Source of the DNA: Lachnospiraceae bacterium
GTDB lineage: Bacteria; Bacillota; Clostridia; Lachnospirales; Lachnospiraceae
Reading direction: 5' to 3'
Length of the DNA stretch: 44,713 nucleotides
Assembly: GCA_017455525.1 (NCBI GenBank)
Contig: JAFTAP010000096.1
Coordinates: 1 to 44,713, forward strand
The stretch's first letter is position 1; each line of letters starts with the position of its first letter. The position numbers and the translations under genes are program-made. Below the pieces are notes generated by a model that was not told the DNA's origin, did not search any database, and saw only the letters and a list, made by a program, of their open reading frames with translations. Shown in pieces: positions 12,701 through 38,624 of the stretch.

Positions 12701-14062
12701 ATGGGTGCATCTCTTACAGAGGGCAGGCCTCTTAAGATAATACTTAAATTCATGCTGCCCCTCCTTTTGGGGAATATATTTCAGCAGTTCTACAATATGG
12801 TGGACACGATAATAGTCGGCAAGTTCGTGGGAGCGAATGCTTTGGCGGCGGTAGGCTCTACGGGGACCATCATGTTCCTGGTGCTTGGAATTGCTAACGG
12901 CATGGCGACAGGCTTCACGGTGCTTACGAGCCAGAAGTTCGGGGCGAAGCAAATAGAAGAAACCAAGGCTACTGTCGCAAACGGGATAATGCTGTCAGGA
13001 ATAGTGGTTGTTGTTCTGACAGCCTTAAGCCTTACCTTCATGCATCCTGTATTAAGGCTTATGAATACGCCTGAGGACATATATGACGACGCATACAGCT
13101 ATATTTCAGTCATCTGCATGGGTATAGTGATGCTCGTGTCATATAACCTTTTTTCTGCGTTCTTAAGGGCTATCGGCAATAGCAGGATACCGCTTTTCTC
13201 CCTTATTTTTTCGGCTCTGTTGAATATAGTGCTCGACGTTGTCTTCATAGTCAATTTCCACATGGGAGTCGCCGGGGCTGCATGGGCTACGAACCTATCA
13301 CAGGGCATAGCTGCCATCTTATGCGTGGTTTATATAATTAAAAAAGAACCTGTGCTTACTCCTACAAGGAGGATGTGGAGGCTTAACAGGCAGTATTCAA
13401 GGCTACAGCTTTACATCGGGGTGCCTATGGCTTTGCAGTTCGGGATCACGGCATCGGGAACGATGATAATGCAGAGCGCGATAAATATATACGGCTCGGT
13501 TGCGGTCGCAGGCTTCACTGCAGCAAGCAAGGTGCAGAACCTTCTGACGCAGGGCATGATGGCTATAGGACAGACTATGACAAGCTATTCGGGACAGAAC
13601 TTCGGGAAGGGCGACCTTGAGCGGGTGGAGTACGGCGTGAAGGATGCCATGAAGATAATGACGGTCTATTCTATCGCAGCGGCTTTGCTTGCAGTGCTTG
13701 CGCTGCCATACATGATGAAGCTCTTCTTTGCATCCGACGCAGTATTTGACGACCTTATTCCATGGGCAAGGACTTATATCTATGAGTGCGTCTTTGCCTA
13801 TATTCCATTGTCAGCAATATTCATATTCAGGAATTCCATGCAGGGCTGCGGATACGGCATGACTGCAATGATGCTTGGAATCGTTGAGTTCTTCACTAGA
13901 CTTATTGCTGCACTTTTATCGATAAGGATAAAGAGCTACGCCCTTGCTGTAGGAAGTGATCCCCTCGCATGGCTTACGGCAGGGATTATATCGGTGATCT
14001 TATTCTTGCATGTGATGAAGGATCTTAAGGCTAAGAAATTGACTGCAGAGAATATAAAGTAG
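12701..14062 (+). CDS. MATE family efflux transporter
   Basis: Inner-membrane cation-coupled multidrug antiporter of 453 residues with about 12 predicted helices in two bundles. The start M-L-P-L-L-L-G-N-I-F-Q-Q-F-Y-N-M-V-D-T-I-I-V-G-K-F-V-G is a family signature, and L-F-S-A-F-L-R-A-I-G-N-S-R-I-P and the second-half F-R-N-S-M-Q-G-C-G-Y-G-M equivalents are present. The ATG follows the helicase stop without a gap, so translation is probably coupled. The substrate cannot be told from sequence. The 107 bases after it, up to the convergent regulator gene, show no clear terminator. Confidence 0.93.
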   Translation: MGASLTEGRPLKIILKFMLPLLLGNIFQQFYNMVDTIIVGKFVGANALAAVGSTGTIMFLVLGIANGMATGFTVLTSQKFGAKQIEETKATVANGIMLSGIVVVVLTALSLTFMHPVLRLMNTPEDIYDDAYSYISVICMGIVMLVSYNLFSAFLRAIGNSRIPLFSLIFSALLNIVLDVVFIVNFHMGVAGAAWATNLSQGIAAILCVVYIIKKEPVLTPTRRMWRLNRQYSRLQLYIGVPMALQFGITASGTMIMQSAINIYGSVAVAGFTAASKVQNLLTQGMMAIGQTMTSYSGQNFGKGDLERVEYGVKDAMKIMTVYSIAAALLAVLALPYMMKLFFASDAVFDDLIPWARTYIYECVFAYIPLSAIFIFRNSMQGCGYGMTAMMLGIVEFFTRLIAALLSIRIKSYALAVGSDPLAWLTAGIISVILFLHVMKDLKAKKLTAENIK

Positions 14063-14169
14063 AATAATTTAAGCGGATTCCGAAGGGCGATCTATCCTGA
14101 TGAAAGGCATAAGCATCTGTATAAAAAGAATAGTACTATGAGTAAAATATTGCTTGCTGGGATGTAGTT

Positions 14170-14520
14170 TCAGCCTTCATTGCTTGAATTAGATGTAAAC
14201 GCCTGATAGCATGCATCGAGTATCTTATAGGCAGCATACTTCTCTTTGGGAGGAAGCATATCTATTTCTGATATTATATCGTTGTAATTCAAAGAAGCGG
14301 GATTTTCTTCTTCTGTCATTATGATATCCGGTGTTATGTGGAATACTTCACAGATTTTCAACATTGATCCAAGCTTAGGATTTGTTAGTCCTCGTTCGAT
14401 ATCCGCATAAGCACGGAGCGAGATTCCTGCCTGCCATGCGGCTTCTGCCTGTGAAAGACCAGATTGCTTTCTAATCTGTTGTAATTTATCACCTATTCTT
14501 TTTAAATTTGTAACAAGCAT
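14170..14520 (-). CDS. XRE-family transcriptional regulator next to the LoaP pair
   Basis: DNA-binding protein of 116 residues with an HTH_3/XRE domain at about residues 8-70 (I-R-K-Q-S-G-L-S-Q-A-E-A-A-W-Q-A-G-I-S-L-type helices, then D-I-E-R-G-L-T-N-P-K). The C-terminal 45 residues are helical with no known domain (M-L-P-P-K-E-K-Y-A-A-Y-K-I-L). AAAGGAG stands 7 nt before the ATG on the minus strand. It is divergent from the LoaP genes, and the region between has two copies of a 20-bp palindrome, so it most likely represses itself and the LoaP/capsule promoter. The effector is unknown. No signal-binding domain is visible. Confidence 0.88.
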   Translation of the reverse strand: MLVTNLKRIGDKLQQIRKQSGLSQAEAAWQAGISLRAYADIERGLTNPKLGSMLKICEVFHITPDIIMTEEENPASLNYNDIISEIDMLPPKEKYAAYKILDACYQAFTSNSSNEG

Positions 14521-14544
14521 TTCATTTCTCCTTTAATTTCCACA

Positions 14545-14564
14545 ATAGGAACTATAGTTCCTAT
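14545..14564. promoter_or_regulatory. Operator 1: perfect 20-bp palindrome ATAGGAA-N6-TTCCTAT
   Basis: A complete palindrome with arms ATAGGAAC and GTTCCTAT. It lies 25-44 bp upstream of the XRE start codon and includes TATAGT on the minus strand. It is the presumed site for autoregulation by the XRE protein. The same arms and spacing recur in operator 2. Confidence 0.75.
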
Positions 14565-14569
14565 AAATA

Positions 14570-14598
14570 TTGACAAAAATACCTTGACATGCTTAAAT
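14570..14598 (+). promoter_or_regulatory. Promoter of the LoaP genes and probably of the capsule operon
   Basis: TTGACA (14570-14575), 17-bp spacer, TTAAAT (14593-14598). Operator 2 begins on the next base, covering the predicted start site, and operator 1 ends 5 bp before the -35. A second TTGACA at 14584 has no matching -10. Confidence 0.6.
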
Positions 14599-14618
14599 AT
14601 AGGAAGTCTGGTTCCTAT
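14599..14618. promoter_or_regulatory. Operator 2: ATAGGAA-N6-TTCCTAT over the LoaP start site
   Basis: Arms ATAGGAA (14599-14605) and TTCCTAT (14612-14618) match operator 1 exactly, with the same 6-bp gap but a different centre (GTCTGG). Centre-to-centre distance to operator 1 is 54 bp, close to five helical turns, which would allow two dimers on the same DNA face. Confidence 0.75.
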
Positions 14619-14667
14619 ATTTAGTGCTTAGGTAATAATTATTGAACCATAGAAGGGCAGATATCGT

Positions 14668-15198
14668 ATGTGGTACGTGCTGAAGGTAATAGAGGGAAAA
14701 GAGGAAAATGCTTGTGAGACATGCAGGATGACATTCACGGATGAGTGCCATGCTGATGTCTTCGTGCCTTACTATGCCCGCCCGTATCACAGAGATGGGG
14801 AGTGGAAGGAGATAAAGAAGGCCTTATTCCCCGGATACATCTTCGTAGATACCGACAAGGCAGGGGCGGAAAGAGTTAGAGAGATGACGGTGAAGCGCAT
14901 ACCGTACACCGCACAGCCCGTGTGCGTGGGGGAAGAGTTCGTGCCCATATACGAGGACGAGCAGAGGCTACTTGAGAGCCTCATGGATAATGATCATGTC
15001 GTGACCGTGTCTAACGGCAACATAATAGACGACAGGGTCGTGGTAGACGAGGGACCGCTAATGCAGTATTCCGACAAGGTCTGCTGGTACGACCGCCATA
15101 AGAGGATGGCAAACATAGAGATGAACCTTCTGGGAAAGACGAGGCGCGTCAAGATAGGACTGGTACTGGCTAATAGGATATATACGAAGGCAGGATGA
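14668..15198 (+). CDS. loaP: LoaP/NusG-like antiterminator, first paralogue
   Basis: NusG-family transcription elongation factor. The NGN domain spans about residues 1-105 (M-W-Y-V-L-K-V-I-E-G-K-E start, A-L-F-P-G-Y-I-F-V-D at about 50-59), followed by a KOW domain (D-D-R-V-V-V-D-E-G-P-L, then W-Y-D-R-H-K-R-M-A, about 124-170). Core NusG is usually elsewhere beside secE, while LoaP-type paralogues (about 170-180 residues) head long polysaccharide or antibiotic operons and let RNA polymerase pass terminators. Here it stands directly before a ~20-kb capsule cluster. Cysteines at residues 17 and 20 (A-C-E-T-C) and in the KOW domain are unusual. AAGGG lies 10 nt before the ATG. Confidence 0.9.
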   Translation: MWYVLKVIEGKEENACETCRMTFTDECHADVFVPYYARPYHRDGEWKEIKKALFPGYIFVDTDKAGAERVREMTVKRIPYTAQPVCVGEEFVPIYEDEQRLLESLMDNDHVVTVSNGNIIDDRVVVDEGPLMQYSDKVCWYDRHKRMANIEMNLLGKTRRVKIGLVLANRIYTKAG

Positions 15199-15202
15199 TA
15201 TC

Positions 15203-15739
15203 TTGTGGTACGTGATACAGGTGAAAGCCATGCATGAGACGGCGGTCGTGGAGAGGTGCAGGAGCGATGTCATAATCCCGGGTGAGGACGTCTTCGCGAT
15301 GAAGTCGGAGAGGATGTTTAAGAGGCATGGCGAGTGGAGCCTGATAGAGGAAGTGTCCTTCCAGAAGTATATATTCGCCGTGACAGAGGACACCGATGAC
15401 TTCCGCATAAGGCTGAGGAACGTGAAAGAGCTCACGAAGATGCTGGGCGTAGGGGATGAGGTGGTCCCGATAAGGCAGGACGAGGAAGACCTGCTTAGGA
15501 GCCTCGGAGGAGAGGAGCATGTGATCCGTTATTCCGTGGGCTTCGTGACAGGCGACAGACTCATAGTCACGGAGGGACCGCTTGCGGGGCACGAGGGAGA
15601 GGTCAAGTGGATAGACCGCCACCAGAGGCTTGCGGGGATAGAGACGGAGCTCATGGGACAGATAGTAACCATAAGGCTTGGCTGCGAGGTATTGAAGAAG
15701 CTCCCGGAGGGACGTCTTATGCCTACTGGGACAGCGTAG
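15203..15739 (+). CDS. loaP: LoaP/NusG-like antiterminator, second paralogue
   Basis: The second NusG-like protein, 178 residues, clearly diverged from the first: M-W-Y-V-I-Q-V-K at the start, V-S-F-Q-K-Y-I-F-A-V in place of F-P-G-Y-I-F-V, and a well-kept KOW region (G-D-R-L-I-V-T-E-G-P-L-A-G-H-E-G-E-V-K, then I-D-R-H-Q-R-L-A). The start is TTG 15203 with AGGA 7 nt upstream, 4 nt after the first loaP stop, so the two are co-translated. The P-G loss in the NGN core may change contacts with polymerase or RNA. The two proteins may serve different terminators, or one may modulate the other. This is inference. Confidence 0.88.
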   Translation: MWYVIQVKAMHETAVVERCRSDVIIPGEDVFAMKSERMFKRHGEWSLIEEVSFQKYIFAVTEDTDDFRIRLRNVKELTKMLGVGDEVVPIRQDEEDLLRSLGGEEHVIRYSVGFVTGDRLIVTEGPLAGHEGEVKWIDRHQRLAGIETELMGQIVTIRLGCEVLKKLPEGRLMPTGTA

Positions 15740-15752
15740 ATATATGTTGATA

Positions 15753-15775
15753 GAGCAGGTATATGAAACCCGCTC
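15753..15775 (+). ncRNA. Leader hairpin just after the LoaP genes, candidate LoaP recognition element
   Basis: GAGCAGGT (15753-15760) pairs with ACCCGCTC (15768-15775) except for one A-C mismatch, around loop ATATGAA. LoaP proteins are known to need an RNA hairpin in the leader they act on. This is the first solid hairpin downstream of loaP. A further stem CGCC-CGGAT-GGCG lies at 15893-15905 inside GGCTT/AAGCC (15862/15906). Confidence 0.4.
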
Positions 15776-15875
15776 CGACTTATGGAGAGAAATATCATTC
15801 AGGAAACCATGGAATGTGAAGGTCGATGGAGTCGCCACACAGGAAACGGCGGATATATCGTGGCTTAAGGATGAA

Positions 15876-15974
15876 GTATGTCGGGAATCAAGCGCCCGGA
15901 TGGCGAAGCCTATTTATTATCTTTAATAGTATGTCGATCCCCTATATCTCTAAGAAGCCCGACATACCGGCCAT
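15876..15974 (+). ncRNA. Leader segment with mutually exclusive RNA helices upstream of a terminator
   Basis: CCCGACATAC (15958-15967) can pair perfectly with GTATGTCGGG (15876-15885), or by its last 8 bases with GTATGTCG (15929-15936); the two pairings exclude each other. The adjoining GGCCAT (15969-15974) can pair with ATGGTC (16020-16025), the 3' arm of the terminator, with one G-U. This is the layout of an attenuator or riboswitch-like expression platform. No known aptamer is recognised. Confidence 0.45.
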
Positions 15975-16010
15975 GCTTATAGAGCTTGAATATGAAAAAG
16001 ATATCAGGAT

Positions 16011-16037
16011 GGACCTCGAATGGTCTTTTTTTGTTTT
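16011..16037 (+). terminator. Intrinsic terminator in the capsule operon leader
   Basis: GGACC (16011-16015) pairs with GGTCT (16022-16026) around TCGAAT, then a run of T (16026-16032) and GTTTT. The stem is short, which suits a terminator that is meant to be overcome. It sits between the LoaP genes and all capsule genes. Confidence 0.6.
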
Positions 16038-16077
16038 ATAGTATTTAGATGAAATCTCAATAAGGGACAGGTAGGTT

Positions 16078-16191
16078 ATGAAAATAGTGATAGCAATCGC
16101 GGGAGCTGTAGTAGCTCTGATAGCGACGATTATAGTGTATTGCTGCATTTTAATAGGTTCAACGCAAGAACATGATGATTGTGACGAGTAG
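16078..16191 (+). CDS. Small 37-aa membrane peptide in the capsule leader
   Basis: ATG 16078 to TAG 16189-16191, preceded by AGGTAGG. The product is a single hydrophobic helix (about residues 3-28: I-V-I-A-I-A-G-A-V-V-A-L-I-A-T-I-I-V), a C-C pair at 22-23, and an acidic end H-D-D-C-D-E. It is not a typical lipobox. It would lie in the membrane with a short polar C-terminus. It stands between the leader terminator and the first glycosyltransferase gene, 33 bp before the latter. I know no family for it. It could be a small regulator or partner of the assembly machinery, or a chance frame. Confidence 0.55.
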   Translation: MKIVIAIAGAVVALIATIIVYCCILIGSTQEHDDCDE

Positions 16192-16224
16192 CAGCATAGT
16201 AAAAATGGAGCTATCAACGTATAT

Positions 16225-17076
16225 ATGAGTGCACAAATCAATAATTATAGTGTGTTGATGTCAGTATATGATAAAGAAAAGCCTGAGTATCTTAGACAGG
16301 CAATTGACAGCATACTGAATCAAACATATAAGCCTGACCAGTTTGTTATAGTCGAGGATGGGCGATTAAATGATGCCCTATATAAGGTATTGGATCATTA
16401 TACGACGGAGTATCCGGAGCTTATCTGTAGGTTGCCGCTGGAGCATAATTATGGGCTGGGCATTGCTTTGGATAGAGGATTAGAAATATGCAGGAATAAT
16501 CTAGTCGCAAGAATGGATTCAGATGATATCTCGGTGAAAGATCGTTGTGAAAAGCAGATGAAATTATTTTCCGATAATCCTAGTTTATCAATCGTATCAG
16601 GTTGTATCGCAGAGTTTGTAGATGACGTTAGCAACGTGGTATCAATCAGAAATGTGCCGGAGAGGCATGAAGCGATAAGAAGACAGATGCGAACGAGAAG
16701 CGCATTCAATCATCCTGCGGTAATGTATAAAAAATCAGAGGTCATTTTAAGTGGAGGATACGGAAAACTAAAGCGAAAACAAGATCATGATCTGTTTTCA
16801 AGAATGATGAATAACGGATGCAGAGCATATAACATTCAGGATGTTATTCTTTATTTTAGGGCGGACAAAGAGAATTTAAGGCGAAGAAAAAGTTGGACAA
16901 ATTGTAACAGCTATATGAAAGCTCAATGGAATATGTTTAGGAGACATGAATGCAGCTTGAAAGACCTGTTATATGTTGATTTCGCACAGTTCTTTTTTTA
17001 TCTTGCACCCGACAGTTTAGTTGAACTGGTTACCAGAAATCATCTAAGAGAACAGATTACTCATAGATCAAGATAG
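16225..17076 (+). CDS. Family 2 glycosyltransferase
   Basis: GT-A fold transferase of 283 residues, acting at the cytoplasmic face of the membrane on a nucleotide sugar. It opens with S-V-L-M-S-V-Y-D-K-E-K-P-E-Y-L-R-Q-A-I-D-S-I-L-N-Q-T, has V-I-V-E-D-G near 45-50, and the metal-binding M-D-S-D-D-I-S at about residues 95-101. It resembles AmsE/WcaA-type capsule transferases. No membrane helix is obvious. It is the first large gene of the capsule operon. The sugar is not predictable. Confidence 0.9.
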   Translation: MSAQINNYSVLMSVYDKEKPEYLRQAIDSILNQTYKPDQFVIVEDGRLNDALYKVLDHYTTEYPELICRLPLEHNYGLGIALDRGLEICRNNLVARMDSDDISVKDRCEKQMKLFSDNPSLSIVSGCIAEFVDDVSNVVSIRNVPERHEAIRRQMRTRSAFNHPAVMYKKSEVILSGGYGKLKRKQDHDLFSRMMNNGCRAYNIQDVILYFRADKENLRRRKSWTNCNSYMKAQWNMFRRHECSLKDLLYVDFAQFFFYLAPDSLVELVTRNHLREQITHRSR

Positions 17077-17094
17077 TGATATCGACTGAAAAAT

Positions 17095-19506
17095 ATGGGA
17101 TTTGAACAGATAATCAATCAAACACTGAATAATTACCCGTTTATAAAAAGAGGTGTCAAGCGGGCATACCAAAGAATCATGTATGGGTTTTCGTCCAAAA
17201 TTAAAAGTTCAGGAGATATAAATCGTGTTTCACCTGACGATGGAAGTGAATATTTCTTTGGATACTATGATAAATCACCATGGGACATCACAGACAGATA
17301 TATGCTTTGCATGAGAGCAAAGAATACATGGTCGGATGTAAGTCCTAAAGAGAAAGCAGACATACTGATCATAGATACTTCATTACCGGAGAATGACACA
17401 AACAGAGTAAAGAAGATAGCAGAGACTAAATCATGGAATGTACAGCAGGGGTGTATGCTCCAGTGGCTTGGATCTGATTTTTCTTCAAAAATCATTTATA
17501 ACGATTTCCGGGATGGGAAGTATGTATCTGTAATTAAAGAAATTTTAACAGGTACAGAGTCTGTCATCCCGGCTCCGATATATACGGTTTCCAATGATGG
17601 AAAGACAGCATTTACACTGGATTTTTCACGCCTTTATAATTTACGGCCCGGATATGGATACCATAATGTTCCGGAGAAAACAGAAGGAGTAGCTTTACCT
17701 GATGCGACAGCGGTATGGAAGATTAATCTTGAGACAGGTGAGGTGCATGAGTTTTTTTCATATAAAGATTTTGTTAAATTTCAGCCTAGACCTGAAATGC
17801 TGGGGGATGGCTCTGTTCATAAGGTAAATCATCTAATGATAAGTCCCGATGGGAATAGATGTATGGTGCTCTACCGTTGGTTTGCAGGACATAAGAAATA
17901 TACTAGACTTATTACGTTTGATACGGATGACGGCAGCGATATGTATCTTCTTTCAGATGATGACATGGTAAGTCATTGTTTTTGGAAGAATAATGAGGAA
18001 ATACTCGCTTTCGAGAATAAAAAAAGCGTTGGAACAGGATATTTCCTCATGAAAGATCATACACAAGAATATATACATTGTTGGCCAAATCTAAGTAATG
18101 ACGGACATCCAAGCTATAGCATGGATGGGAGCATGGTTGTGACTGATACCTACCCGGATAGGGCAAGAATCAGTGAAATAAAAATAATGAGTGGAAAGGA
18201 TGAGAAGATGTCTGACGTCAAGGTCATAGCAAAAGTCTTCTCCCCATTCAAGTATGACAATGACACCCGATGTGACCTTCATCCTCGTTGGAATTACGCA
18301 GGAGATAGAGTATGTTTTGATGGCGTGTTCGAGGGACATAGGGGGCTGTATTTAATAGACGTATCAAAAGAGAGACAGGATGTTAAAGAGAACAGGATAT
18401 TGGTTTGTTTTATGATGACGGCATGTAAGAAATGTGGTCCTGTACAGCAGATGCTGAATATTATAAAGGATATAGACAGAGAGACAATAGAGCCGGTACT
18501 GCTTACAATCTACCCTGAACCAACGGACGGAAGTAGCCAGATTAATAAATATTTACCTTATGTAACACATTATTATGCACATACACGAAAAATAGATATA
18601 GTCTTTGGTAGAACAGAGAAGATTGATAAGGTTCTATCTGACATTCACCCTGATGTTATCCATTCTTTAGGGGTATTTCCTGATTATGCAATAAGTCGGA
18701 TAAGAAAGTACCCACAGATAATAACTCTTAGGAACTACATATGGGATGATTACCCGGCTAAGTATGGGCGAATTCGGGGAACTATTCTTGCAAGGCTACA
18801 TATATATGCTATGAGACATGCAGATAAAACAGTAACATGTTCTAGGAGTTTATCGGAAGCATATAAAAAAGGCATGCATTTAACATATGATTATGTCATT
18901 AATGGGGTAGATACATATATTTTTAAGAAAACAAGTGATGAAGAAAGGATAAAAATACGCAGACAAGCAGGAATACCTTGCAGTTCTTTTGTTTTTGTAT
19001 ATTCAGGACAGTTTATAAAAAGGAAGAACCAGAGCTTTTTGTTGTCTGTCTTTCGGGAAGCATTCCAATCATCTGATATTTATCTTCTTATGCTGGGGGA
19101 TGGACCAGATTATCAGGAACTATATGATGAGTTTGGCAATATTGATAATATTGATTTTAGAGGAGACGTAGACGATGTAAGCCATTATCTGAAAGCATCT
19201 GATGCATATGTGTCTACGAGTAAGTCTGAGGGGATGCCTAATGGAGTGCTTGAGGCTATGGCAACAGGTTTGCCGGTTGTTTTATCAGATATTAATCAAC
19301 ATACCGAAATATTTAAGGCAAATCCTGGCATTGGTTATACATATAAACAGAATGATACGACTGACTTATCCGACAAAATGAAAAAAATATTAAGCGGTGA
19401 TTACAGGGGAATGGGTGAAAGAGCATACGACTTAGCAAATAATAAGTTTAATGCAAAAAAAATGAGTGAGAAATACCAAAGACTTTATAAAGAGCTGTAT
19501 CGATAG
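17095..19506 (+). CDS. Fusion of a TolB-like beta-propeller domain with a GT4 glycosyltransferase
   Basis: 803 residues in two parts. Residues 1 to about 428 look like a WD/TolB-type propeller of the kind linked to polysaccharide loci: S-P-D-D-G-S-E-Y-F-F-G-Y-Y-D-K-S-P-W-D near 42-60, then repeated W-x-N/S-P-D-G-x blades (M-I-S-P-D-G-N-R-C, S-Y-S-M-D-G-S, H-P-R-W-N-Y-A-G-D-R-V-C-F-D). Residues about 429-803 form a GT-B GT4 transferase: N-G-V-D at about 602, the donor site with Y-S-G-Q-F-I-K-R-K-N-Q, and S-E-G-M-P-N-G-V-L-E-A-M-A-T-G-L-P at about 711-727. No stop or frame shift lies between them. The propeller may bind the glycan or cut it. Its role is unknown. Confidence 0.85.
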   Translation: MGFEQIINQTLNNYPFIKRGVKRAYQRIMYGFSSKIKSSGDINRVSPDDGSEYFFGYYDKSPWDITDRYMLCMRAKNTWSDVSPKEKADILIIDTSLPENDTNRVKKIAETKSWNVQQGCMLQWLGSDFSSKIIYNDFRDGKYVSVIKEILTGTESVIPAPIYTVSNDGKTAFTLDFSRLYNLRPGYGYHNVPEKTEGVALPDATAVWKINLETGEVHEFFSYKDFVKFQPRPEMLGDGSVHKVNHLMISPDGNRCMVLYRWFAGHKKYTRLITFDTDDGSDMYLLSDDDMVSHCFWKNNEEILAFENKKSVGTGYFLMKDHTQEYIHCWPNLSNDGHPSYSMDGSMVVTDTYPDRARISEIKIMSGKDEKMSDVKVIAKVFSPFKYDNDTRCDLHPRWNYAGDRVCFDGVFEGHRGLYLIDVSKERQDVKENRILVCFMMTACKKCGPVQQMLNIIKDIDRETIEPVLLTIYPEPTDGSSQINKYLPYVTHYYAHTRKIDIVFGRTEKIDKVLSDIHPDVIHSLGVFPDYAISRIRKYPQIITLRNYIWDDYPAKYGRIRGTILARLHIYAMRHADKTVTCSRSLSEAYKKGMHLTYDYVINGVDTYIFKKTSDEERIKIRRQAGIPCSSFVFVYSGQFIKRKNQSFLLSVFREAFQSSDIYLLMLGDGPDYQELYDEFGNIDNIDFRGDVDDVSHYLKASDAYVSTSKSEGMPNGVLEAMATGLPVVLSDINQHTEIFKANPGIGYTYKQNDTTDLSDKMKKILSGDYRGMGERAYDLANNKFNAKKMSEKYQRLYKELYR

Positions 19507-37019: not shown

Positions 37020-38624
37020 ATGAATAACAGGAAGCTTCCGATAGGGATACAGGATTTTGAGTCTCTGCGTAATGACGGGTATCTTTACGTGGATAAGACG
37101 AGGTATATATATGAGCTTGCGCATAAGGGCAAGCCTTATTTTCTAAGCCGTCCGAGGCGGTTCGGGAAGAGCTTGCTGCTTTCCACGATGAGAGCATACT
37201 TCGAGGGTAAGAGGGAGCTTTTTGAGGGACTCGCAATAGAGGAGCTTGAGTCCGGTGAGCCTGATGCATGGCAGGAGTACCCGGTATTTTATTTTGATTT
37301 CAATAAGAAGAATTTCCAGCGTGAGACTGCATTGGAGGAGGTTCTCACGGATCATCTTAAAGATTGGGAGTCCATATATGGAGATGAGCATGCAGAAAGC
37401 CCTTTAGAAGAGCGTTTCCAGCATCTTATAGTCAAAGCTGTTGAACAGACAGGGCGTAACGCCGTAGTGCTAGTGGACGAGTACGATAAGCCACTTCTCG
37501 AGACTATCACTGATGACGATCTGGAGGAGCATAATAAGGCTGTATTCAAGGGCTTCTTCAGCACATTAAAGAGCTACGATCATTATCTTAAATTCGTGTT
37601 CCTCACGGGGGTGACAAAGTTCAGCAAAGTGAGCATCTTCAGTGACCTCAATCAGTTGCAGGACATATCGCTTGATGCGGACTACGCAGAGATATGTGGC
37701 ATCAAGGAGGAGGAGATGAAGGACTGCTTCATGCCTGAGATAGAGAGGATGGCGGAGTCCAACGGGATGAGCGTTGGAGAGTGCCTTACGAGTCTTAGGA
37801 AGCAGTATGACGGTTATCATTTCCATCCTGATTCCATGGGGGTATACAACCCTTTCAGCCTTATTAATGCCCTGCAGAAGCGGGAGTTCGGCTATTATTG
37901 GTTCTCCACCGGTACCCCGACATTCCTGTTGAAGAAGCTTGAGCAGATTGATTTTGACGCAAAGCAGTTCACTGGGGATGACCTGTATGCCTCTCCTCGC
38001 GTGCTATCTGATTACAGGGCGGACAATCCCGACCCGATCCCATTGTTTTACCAGACCGGGTATCTCACCATATGCGGGTATGACAGGGTATATGAGAGCT
38101 GTAAGCTGGGGTATCCTAATAATGAGGTCAAGTATGGATTTCTGGAGAGTCTGGCGCCTTATTACCTTCATAATGAAGAGAGTGCGAGTCCGCTGGACGT
38201 AAGGCGGTTCGGAAAGGACTTGGAGAAGGCTGATCTGGATAGCCTGCGTGAGAGGTTCACGGCTTTATTTGCGAGGCTTCCATATACTACGGATGAGAAG
38301 CCCGTGGAGCAGAACTTCCAGAATGTAGTCTATATAGTGTTCATGCTTCTCGGGAAGTTCGTTCATACGGAAGTACATAGTGCGAAGGGACGGGCAGACT
38401 GCATAGTAGAGACGGATGACTATGTCTATATTTTTGAGTTCAAGCGTGACGACTCCGCGGATGAGGCACTGAGGCAGATAGAGGATAAGGGATATGCAAA
38501 GCCTTATGCGGCGGATAAGAGGAAACTCTATCGCATAGGTGTGAATTTTGACTCAAAGGAACGGACGATAGACGGATGGGAAGTTAGAGAAAATGAAGAT
38601 GGGACACTTGGAGATAACTCATAA
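37020..38624 (+). CDS. AAA-ATPase-like protein with C-terminal PD-(D/E)XK nuclease domain
   Basis: 534 residues of the family that joins an AAA-ATPase_like domain to a PDDEXK_9 domain, often multi-copy in gut Clostridia and Bacteroidetes. N-terminal K-L-P-I-G-I-Q-D-F-E-S-L-R-N-D-G-Y-L-Y-V-D-K-T is diagnostic. R-P-R-R-F-G-K-S-L-L near 43-52 is the Walker A-like loop, and V-L-V-D-E-Y-D-K-P-L near 150-159 is Walker B. The end has K-G-R-A-D-C-I-V-E and Y-I-F-E-F-K-R-D near 455-482, a PD-(D/E)XK core. Function is unknown; links to mobile DNA or defence are suspected. It has its own promoter, independent of the capsule operon. Confidence 0.88.
   Translation: MNNRKLPIGIQDFESLRNDGYLYVDKTRYIYELAHKGKPYFLSRPRRFGKSLLLSTMRAYFEGKRELFEGLAIEELESGEPDAWQEYPVFYFDFNKKNFQRETALEEVLTDHLKDWESIYGDEHAESPLEERFQHLIVKAVEQTGRNAVVLVDEYDKPLLETITDDDLEEHNKAVFKGFFSTLKSYDHYLKFVFLTGVTKFSKVSIFSDLNQLQDISLDADYAEICGIKEEEMKDCFMPEIERMAESNGMSVGECLTSLRKQYDGYHFHPDSMGVYNPFSLINALQKREFGYYWFSTGTPTFLLKKLEQIDFDAKQFTGDDLYASPRVLSDYRADNPDPIPLFYQTGYLTICGYDRVYESCKLGYPNNEVKYGFLESLAPYYLHNEESASPLDVRRFGKDLEKADLDSLRERFTALFARLPYTTDEKPVEQNFQNVVYIVFMLLGKFVHTEVHSAKGRADCIVETDDYVYIFEFKRDDSADEALRQIEDKGYAKPYAADKRKLYRIGVNFDSKERTIDGWEVRENEDGTLGDNS

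Follow-up and report, generated by a model that had tools for sequence, protein, structure and literature searches.

A conserved LoaP-associated leader element with an ops-like pause signature ahead of a capsule operon in a Lachnospiraceae bacterium

What is the function of the leader that separates two tandem loaP genes from a surface-polymer operon, and is it an RNA switch or a site at which LoaP is recruited? We explored this question for contig JAFTAP010000096.1 of a Lachnospiraceae bacterium (assembly GCA_017455525.1), of which the whole stretch of 44,713 nt was analysed and is called the window here. The initial annotation had read the leader as an RNA switch, in which competing helices and a terminator, set by LoaP or by a ligand, control read-through into the capsule genes. 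The leader is framed by the following genes.

14668..15198, + strand: loaP-1, NusG paralogue of the LoaP family; NF033641 139.7 bits (cut-off 125); PF02357
15203..15739, + strand: loaP-2, tandem second LoaP; NF033641 129.2 bits (cut-off 125)
16225..17076, + strand: first capsule-type gene, glycosyltransferase family 2; PF00535, E 5.7e-23

Both upstream proteins exceed the cut-off of the curated LoaP model, confirming the two LoaP genes that had been named ahead of the leader, and the best PDB sequence match of the loaP-2 product is 8f5g_A (E 9.2e-13). Domain matches likewise bear out the capsule or surface-polymer operon after the leader, the downstream genes tested being of the types GT2, GT1, Wzy_C, TupA-like ATPgrasp, PGA_cap and CDP-glycerol glycerophosphotransferase. 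Within the capsule cluster, Pfam additionally identifies an AAA-ATPase_like and PDDEXK_9 gene at 37020–38624. Upstream, an HTH_3 regulator gene lies divergently at 14170–14670 of the window, and palindromes of the form AGGAAC/GTTCCT, which sit between it and loaP-1, suggest control of the loaP operon by this regulator. Two small ORFs in the leader region (15744–15926 and 15826–16041) were rejected as genes, being without Pfam match.

The pairings on which the switch had been built do exist within 15740–16040. GTATGTCGGG (15876–15885) and CCCGACATAC (15958–15967) form a perfect 10-bp helix, the longest Watson–Crick helix of this region, GTATGTCG occurs again at 15929–15936, GGCCAT (15969–15974) is able to pair with ATGGTC (16020–16025) over 6 bp with one G–U, and the hairpin described at 15753–15775 is present in the MFE fold. 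These pairings exceed chance weakly, a helix of at least 10 bp being found in 10 of 300 dinucleotide shuffles of 15740–16040. The thermodynamic fold proposed as a check gave no support, since for 15740–16060 (321 nt) z was 0.11 and 50 of 100 shuffles were at least as stable. Two features occupy the 3′ part of the leader.

15930..16002, + strand: decayed AAA-ATPase-like/PD-(D/E)XK nuclease gene fragment, outside the conserved element; DNA and protein matches
16011..16036, + strand: weak terminator-like hairpin and T-rich tail ahead of the capsule operon

The terminator that had been placed at 16011 is plausible as a site, with a hairpin of 5 bp (16011–16026), 3 of them G–C, followed by TTTTTTGTTT; however, it is weak, since 14520–16400 holds two terminator-like sites where shuffles hold 1.0 ± 1.1. 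The stretch 15930–16002 shows 75% DNA identity (E 5e-6) to a longer open gene in a congener locus, L039, and in-frame protein matches to genes in L039 and L043 comprise 12/24 and 13/22 identical residues. The names given to the fragment come from the Pfam matches of the window gene at 37020–38624, and we read the L039 and L043 genes as being of the same kind. Both 3′ players of the proposed switch, CCCGACATAC and GGCCAT, fall inside this relic.

A different part of the leader was found to be conserved when the flanks of the loaP loci of this genome were compared by eye and then captured in a covariance model, R1. Its ten seeds, one of which is the window, all come from this genus and include four loci of this genome. 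The resulting element, which overlaps the 10-bp helix, is composed as follows in the window.

15787..15914, + strand: conserved LoaP-associated leader element; covariance-model match, R1 73.2 bits, R2 69.5 bits
15807..15849, + strand: P1, CCAU (15807–15810) with ACGG (15846–15849); one A–C mismatch in the window
15821..15836, + strand: P2, GG-(bulged U)-CGAU with GUCG-CC, 6 pairs, loop GGA; candidate LoaP-binding hairpin
15849..15860, + strand: conserved linker GCGGAUAUAUCG, consensus GCGGACAUAUCG, from alignments
15881..15899, + strand: P3, candidate pause hairpin UCGGG/CCCGG; ends 2 nt ahead of GGCGAAGC
15902..15909, + strand: ops-like motif GGCGAAGC, from 62 elements chosen by GGCG[AG]AGC and a one-mismatch scan

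The order of parts is thus P1, the bulged hairpin P2, the linker GCGGACAUA, hairpin P3 and the near-invariant GGCGAAGC. In the consensus, P1 (CCGU/ACGG) encloses P2 (UG-bulge-CGCU/AGCG-CA), which is followed by GCGGACAUAUCG, a P3 of variable sequence and AUGGCGAAGC. P2 of the window is complete with changed pair types, having G–C at pair 1, A–U at pair 5 and U–G at pair 6, where U–A, C–G and U–A are commonest. The window departs from the consensus in its P1 mismatch, its short P3 and its +1 base, A and not G; its P3 was misplaced by the covariance model, and UCGGG/CCCGG at 15881–15899 was taken instead. By eye, the P2 loop GCUUUGCC could pair with GGCGAAGC in many Lachnospiraceae, and in L103, L112 and others the P2 region carries GCTTTGCC or GCTTCGCC, whose complementarity to GGCGAAGC would allow a possible alternative long-range helix.

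Rfam gave no gathering-score match at the element, neither in the window nor in 20 loci searched whole, and a permissive search of the five own-genome loci yielded five sub-threshold matches, none of which overlaps the element. This agrees with the earlier statement that the leader was not recognised as a known riboswitch class. JUMPstart of enterobacteria, EAR of Bacillales and conAn are antitermination leader elements of polysaccharide or conjugation operons; in the comparison through Rfam, the present element had no gathering-score match. In the open-licence literature searched, we found no earlier description of P1–P3 together with GGCGAAGC.

P1 to P3 covary. Among 39 sequences aligned with the covariance model, 82.7% of cells are paired and 15 of 21 pairs changed on both sides, compared to a shuffled mean of 12.3; having been fitted to the model, this alignment (A4) is biased towards the model's structure. 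Compensatory cells in the P1–P3 alignment amount to 154 compared to 52.6 after shuffling, and the covariation score of 0.468 exceeds both the shuffled (0.177) and the slid (0.049–0.124) values. P1 is paired in 142/153 and P2 in 182/204 cells of the 39 sequences, and in the 26 non-seed rows, which leave out the seeds and three close relatives, the counts are 95/101 for P1, 110/126 for P2 and 117/145 for P3. Both-side changes affect five of the six pairs of P2. The outer stem of P4 was rejected as a conserved helix, being paired in 15 of 39 sequences.

The element is also linked to loaP. Five loci of this genome together encode six LoaP proteins that exceed the cut-off, two of the genes being located in the window, and R1 matches once at each locus (C7, C34, C37, C51 and C31) with scores of 104, 102, 96, 73 and 34 bits. 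Four matches lie just downstream of loaP; the fifth, at C31 (34.1 bits), lies 2.8 kb downstream and is independent, as it was not a seed. Searching 48 congeneric genomes with the leader DNA returned six matches beyond the window, two of them within the nuclease genes of L039 and L043 and the other four in unrelated sequence, so homologues were found through loaP. The pattern GCGGACAKATN{20,50}GGCGAAGC occurred in 5 of 48 congeneric genomes and its reversed control in none. A loaP-centred search placed a model match beside loaP in 7/7 genome_contigs loci (titled Butyrivibrio, Lachnospiraceae and Anaerotruncus colihominis). Five of these matches reach 78–107 bits, although two of the five, L090 and L091, had already served as seeds, and the remaining two are weak at 23.2 and 19.6 bits, while 18 presumed housekeeping nusG loci gave no match above 11.8 bits.

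Within 600 nt of loaP, GGCG[AG]AGC was present in the sense orientation in 46 of 70 Lachnospiraceae loci and in antisense in 5 of 70 (Fisher 1.7e-13), where 46/70 corresponds to 45/69 distinct loci because L127 and L150 overlap, and where the 70 consist of the 30 loci first returned and 40 more from the same list, taken roughly by rank with some skipped. Three of the 24 loci without the motif in this range have it, or a one-base variant, at 620–690 nt. In many other genera the 8-mer lies 30–390 nt upstream of loaP, not downstream. For other Clostridia families the exact 8-mer was found near loaP in 6/30 loci and in antisense in one (p 0.10, not significant), which speaks against a universal link between element and loaP. 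As to arrangement, the element follows three loaP-like frames in tandem in L060/L097 (G230), and a strong intrinsic terminator lies between element and loaP in L100 and L102, approximately 65–100 nt past the motif.

On the genome level (E 0.01, strict filters), R1 has matches in 20 of the 397 genomes of the family, and R2 in 25 of the 391 of the class. A loaP-like frame lies within ~1.5 kb at 13 of the 27 non-own R1 loci, and 9 of the 24 non-own class (R2) loci have a loaP-like frame. LoaP over the cut-off is encoded by 16/25 element-positive Clostridia genomes compared to 47/366 others (p 2e-8), leaving 9/25 element-positive class genomes without one. Weak R1 or R2 matches without nearby loaP and motif (e.g. 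L072, L169, L171) are probably chance. A structured regulatory stretch between loaP and the surface-polymer operon, tied to LoaP, is supported for this leader.

We then considered the geometry around the motif in the 62 elements, for which it should be noted that their selection by GGCG[AG]AGC, with exclusion of sites that follow an A or lie too close to the end of a locus, renders the invariance of the 8-mer partly a matter of construction, that L144_2587 and L155_2423 resemble coding sequence, and that related sequences are counted singly. With P3 scored as the best hairpin of at least 4 bp within 5 nt of the motif, the mean score is 13.1 compared to 7.8 in shuffles, and in 40/62 elements exactly 2 nt separate the end of P3 from the first G of the motif. 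The consensus of transcriptional pauses is G-10/Y-1/G+1. A Y–R step is found at positions 10/11 in 42 and at 11/12 in 18 elements, and G at −10 combined with Y–R at −1/+1 in 60/62, the window included, +1 often being A. The predicted pause of the window has T15911 at −1, A15912 at +1 and G15902 at −10. A step at 10/11 puts the RNA 3′ end 12 nt from the hairpin, and pause hairpins are located 11–12 nt from the RNA 3′ end according to the excerpted source (PMC12288461). Among 91 other GGCG[AG]AGC sites, unfiltered and including elements outside the 62, the Y–R step occurs in 50 and the 2-nt gap in 23; after removal of sites in element-like context the counts drop to 6/26 and 2/26.

The motif itself hardly varies. 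The two inner G–C pairs of GGCGAAGC are constant in 39/39 sequences, and in a one-mismatch scan 16 of 23 sense-strand variants of ATGGCGAAGC differ in one of the two bases that precede the 8-mer or by A5 to G. The latter, the commonest change inside the 8-mer (8/62 elements, 4 variants in the unbiased scan), keeps the GNA loop. That the inner stem bases never vary argues for recognition of sequence, not of the stem alone.

By the pause consensus, the Y–R step with G at −10 is a partial likeness to ops, the enterobacterial target of RfaH, since the consensus has G at +1 where the element often has A. As excerpted, PMC5995543 gives ops12 as GGCGGTAGCGTG, in which a small DNA hairpin, closed by C3:G8, is required to recruit RfaH. 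Both systems combine a NusG paralogue with a GGCG..AGC core able to form such a hairpin. However, the window has GGCGAAGCCTAT and not GGCGGTAGCGTG, only the core being related, the triloop of the element is GAA where the ops loop is GGTA, and the element possesses a preceding hairpin and an RNA domain. Excerpts of PMC4686876 describe d(GCGAAGC) as an exceptionally stable DNA mini-hairpin of the GNA-loop kind, melting near 78 °C; GGCGAAGC contains this sequence and ends as in ops, with loop GAA. LoaP belongs to a NusG subfamily different from that of RfaH, and its recognition of the motif is only a candidate. A second likeness is to the TTNTTT pauses of B. subtilis, where NusG reads a non-template DNA motif in the bubble and a hairpin sits 11–12 nt from the 3′ end, as far as the excerpted account goes (PMC12288461); in the element GGCGAAGC replaces TTNTTT, and the element is linked to loaP.

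For the dfn/mln leader of Bacillus velezensis, the excerpted account (PMC12691694) reports that LoaP requires a UNCG-type leader RNA hairpin and binds the tested single-stranded DNAs weakly and nonspecifically, and that a pause between hairpin and terminator moderately enhances antitermination in vivo. Common to both leaders are a LoaP-family protein, a leader hairpin, a long operon thereafter, and a pause and terminator in between, which in the window are predicted or weak. In contrast, P2 of the window is not UNCG, and P1, the GCGGACAUA linker, P3 and GGCGAAGC are not met in the excerpts of that account, which also identify no non-template DNA signal (PMC12691694). No UNCG hairpin (T-N-C-G loop, stem of at least 5 bp) was found on the + strand of 14001–17500. 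Hairpins of the form T(G)TT(T)CGGC with at least 4 bp were present in 7/30 loci of other families and 2/70 of Lachnospiraceae in sense, and in none of either in antisense. Hairpins with loop TGTTTCGGC lie downstream of loaP in L191, L194, L196, L199, L201, L202 and L208, all from other Clostridia families (7/30 non-Lachnospiraceae loci). Most are followed by GGTCAT-like sequence; in L196 and L199 GGCGAAGCTATGCC follows, and the UNCG-type hairpin precedes GGCGAAGC. Since UNCG-type hairpins thus stand beside loaP and, in these two loci, ahead of GGCGAAGCTATGCC, P2 is possibly the counterpart of the LoaP hairpin and may be a diverged form of it, the dfn hairpin being compared by its description.

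We propose, with moderate confidence, a model in which 15787–15914 is a LoaP recruitment element that joins an RNA hairpin to an ops-like pause. For this conserved, covarying and loaP-linked element with its pause-like geometry, we infer binding of LoaP, pausing and antitermination. An RNA domain (P1, P2 and the GCGGACAUA linker) would be followed by a hairpin-stabilised pause made up of P3, GGCGAAGC and the Y–R step ~12 nt past the hairpin. RNA polymerase would transcribe loaP and then enter the leader, where P1 and P2 would fold and LoaP would hold P2. The polymerase would pause while P3 occupies its exit channel and the bubble exposes GGCGAAGC, and the N-terminal domain of LoaP would contact the paused complex at GGCGAAGC, either as RNA or as a non-template DNA mini-hairpin GC-GAA-GC, the latter mirroring RfaH at ops. 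Polymerase loaded with LoaP would then pass terminators into the capsule operon. Its more specific form, a two-part clostridial LoaP recruitment by RNA hairpin and by GGCGAAGC as non-template DNA mini-hairpin at a hairpin-stabilised pause, is plausible and put forward tentatively. Several of the observations above weigh against the model. The motif is missing within 600 nt of loaP at 24/70 Lachnospiraceae loci and shows no significant association with loaP in the 30 loci of other families, 9/25 element-positive class genomes are without a LoaP that exceeds the cut-off, and the unfiltered other GGCG[AG]AGC sites also display the Y–R step (50/91) and the 2-nt gap (23/91), albeit with further elements among them. 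The weak, nonspecific binding of single-stranded DNA by the B. velezensis LoaP (PMC12691694), the departures of the window in P1, P3 and +1, and the low number of elements with a clear terminator within 240 nt (6/60) point in the same direction.

The most serious alternative, which we regard as rather unlikely, is that LoaP reads the RNA hairpin P2 alone, as in Bacillus, with P3 and GGCGAAGC acting as a plain pause during which assembly can take place. Binding of LoaP to a leader RNA hairpin with moderate help from a downstream pause, as excerpted from PMC12691694, would fit it, as would the good conservation of P2 and the UNCG-type hairpins that stand beside loaP without GGCG[AG]AGC within 600 nt (e.g. 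L191, L202). However, a plain pause would need no near-invariant 8-mer, and both the constancy of the inner G–C pairs in 39/39 sequences and the confinement of 16/23 one-mismatch variants of ATGGCGAAGC to the two preceding bases or A5 to G speak against it. A metabolite-binding riboswitch placed beside loaP by coincidence is very improbable: the RNA is compact, covarying and near polysaccharide genes, and three genomes of family f18 have loaP on another contig, but the link to loaP opposes this reading, the helices are short, and conservation is strongest 3′ of the hairpins, at pause distance. That the element is an interspersed repeat, with GGCGAAGC also found in repeats of this genus, is hardly credible. 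L014 and L016 do have copies of GTCATTCTGAGGGCGAAGCCCGAAGAATCTT, which holds the mini-hairpin sequence, upstream of their LoaP matches; against this stand the single match per loaP locus in this genome, the orientation with loaP and the covariation.

The switch of the initial annotation, in which competition between 15876–15885 and 15958–15967 governs the terminator at 16011 under the influence of LoaP or a ligand, is left as quite improbable. Its 10-bp helix and the terminator-like hairpin both exist, and L100 and L102 combine a 9-bp alternative partner of P3 with a strong terminator after the element. In homologues, however, hairpin P3 occupies the place of the 5′ arm (GTATGTCGGG), which there pairs locally, with the stretch directly ahead of GGCGAAGC; the 3′ arm of the window lies in nuclease-gene relic. 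The particular switch is not supported. A perfect match of at least 8 bp that links the 45 nt preceding the motif to the 120 nt following it was found in only 5/62 elements, its length being 10 bp for the window, 9 bp for three others and 8 bp for one, and in 0/62 after one shuffle per element; two of the three elements with 9 bp share one genus, and the L111 match is not with P3 itself. The helix is moreover equalled in the 10 of 300 shuffles given above. Compensatory changes for the named helices were thus not borne out, an outcome that speaks against the switch; other helices of this stretch do show such changes. Judged by comparison of the homologues, what is conserved are the helices of the element and not the pairings named before. 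Read-through control as such may nevertheless apply, since a clear terminator follows within 240 nt in 6/60 elements and in none of five shuffles of each.

The leader is real: it holds an element that is conserved beside loaP and bears a pause signature resembling ops, from which we infer LoaP recruitment, and it is more interesting than the switch proposed for it. Action in trans is also possible. In the three f18 genomes, which represent one family, element and loaP are found on separate contigs, but these genomes are in many contigs, so this does not prove distance between the two. The element is followed by Wzz in L175 and L179, with a ParA/AAA_31-type ATPase next in L179, and by a nucleotidyltransferase-like frame in L166, the third genome. 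These elements are possible trans targets of LoaP.

On the question of how LoaP locates its operons, the Bacillus work, as excerpted (PMC12691694), gave a required RNA hairpin and no specific DNA signal. A near-invariant motif at pause geometry offers a direct route to ask whether Gram-positive NusG paralogues load like RfaH, and the element can be used to search Clostridia for operons that LoaP may control, some of them without neighbouring loaP. If the proposal is true, two-part recruitment would be the Gram-positive counterpart of RfaH–ops, serving numerous surface-polymer operons and, in some genomes, working in trans.
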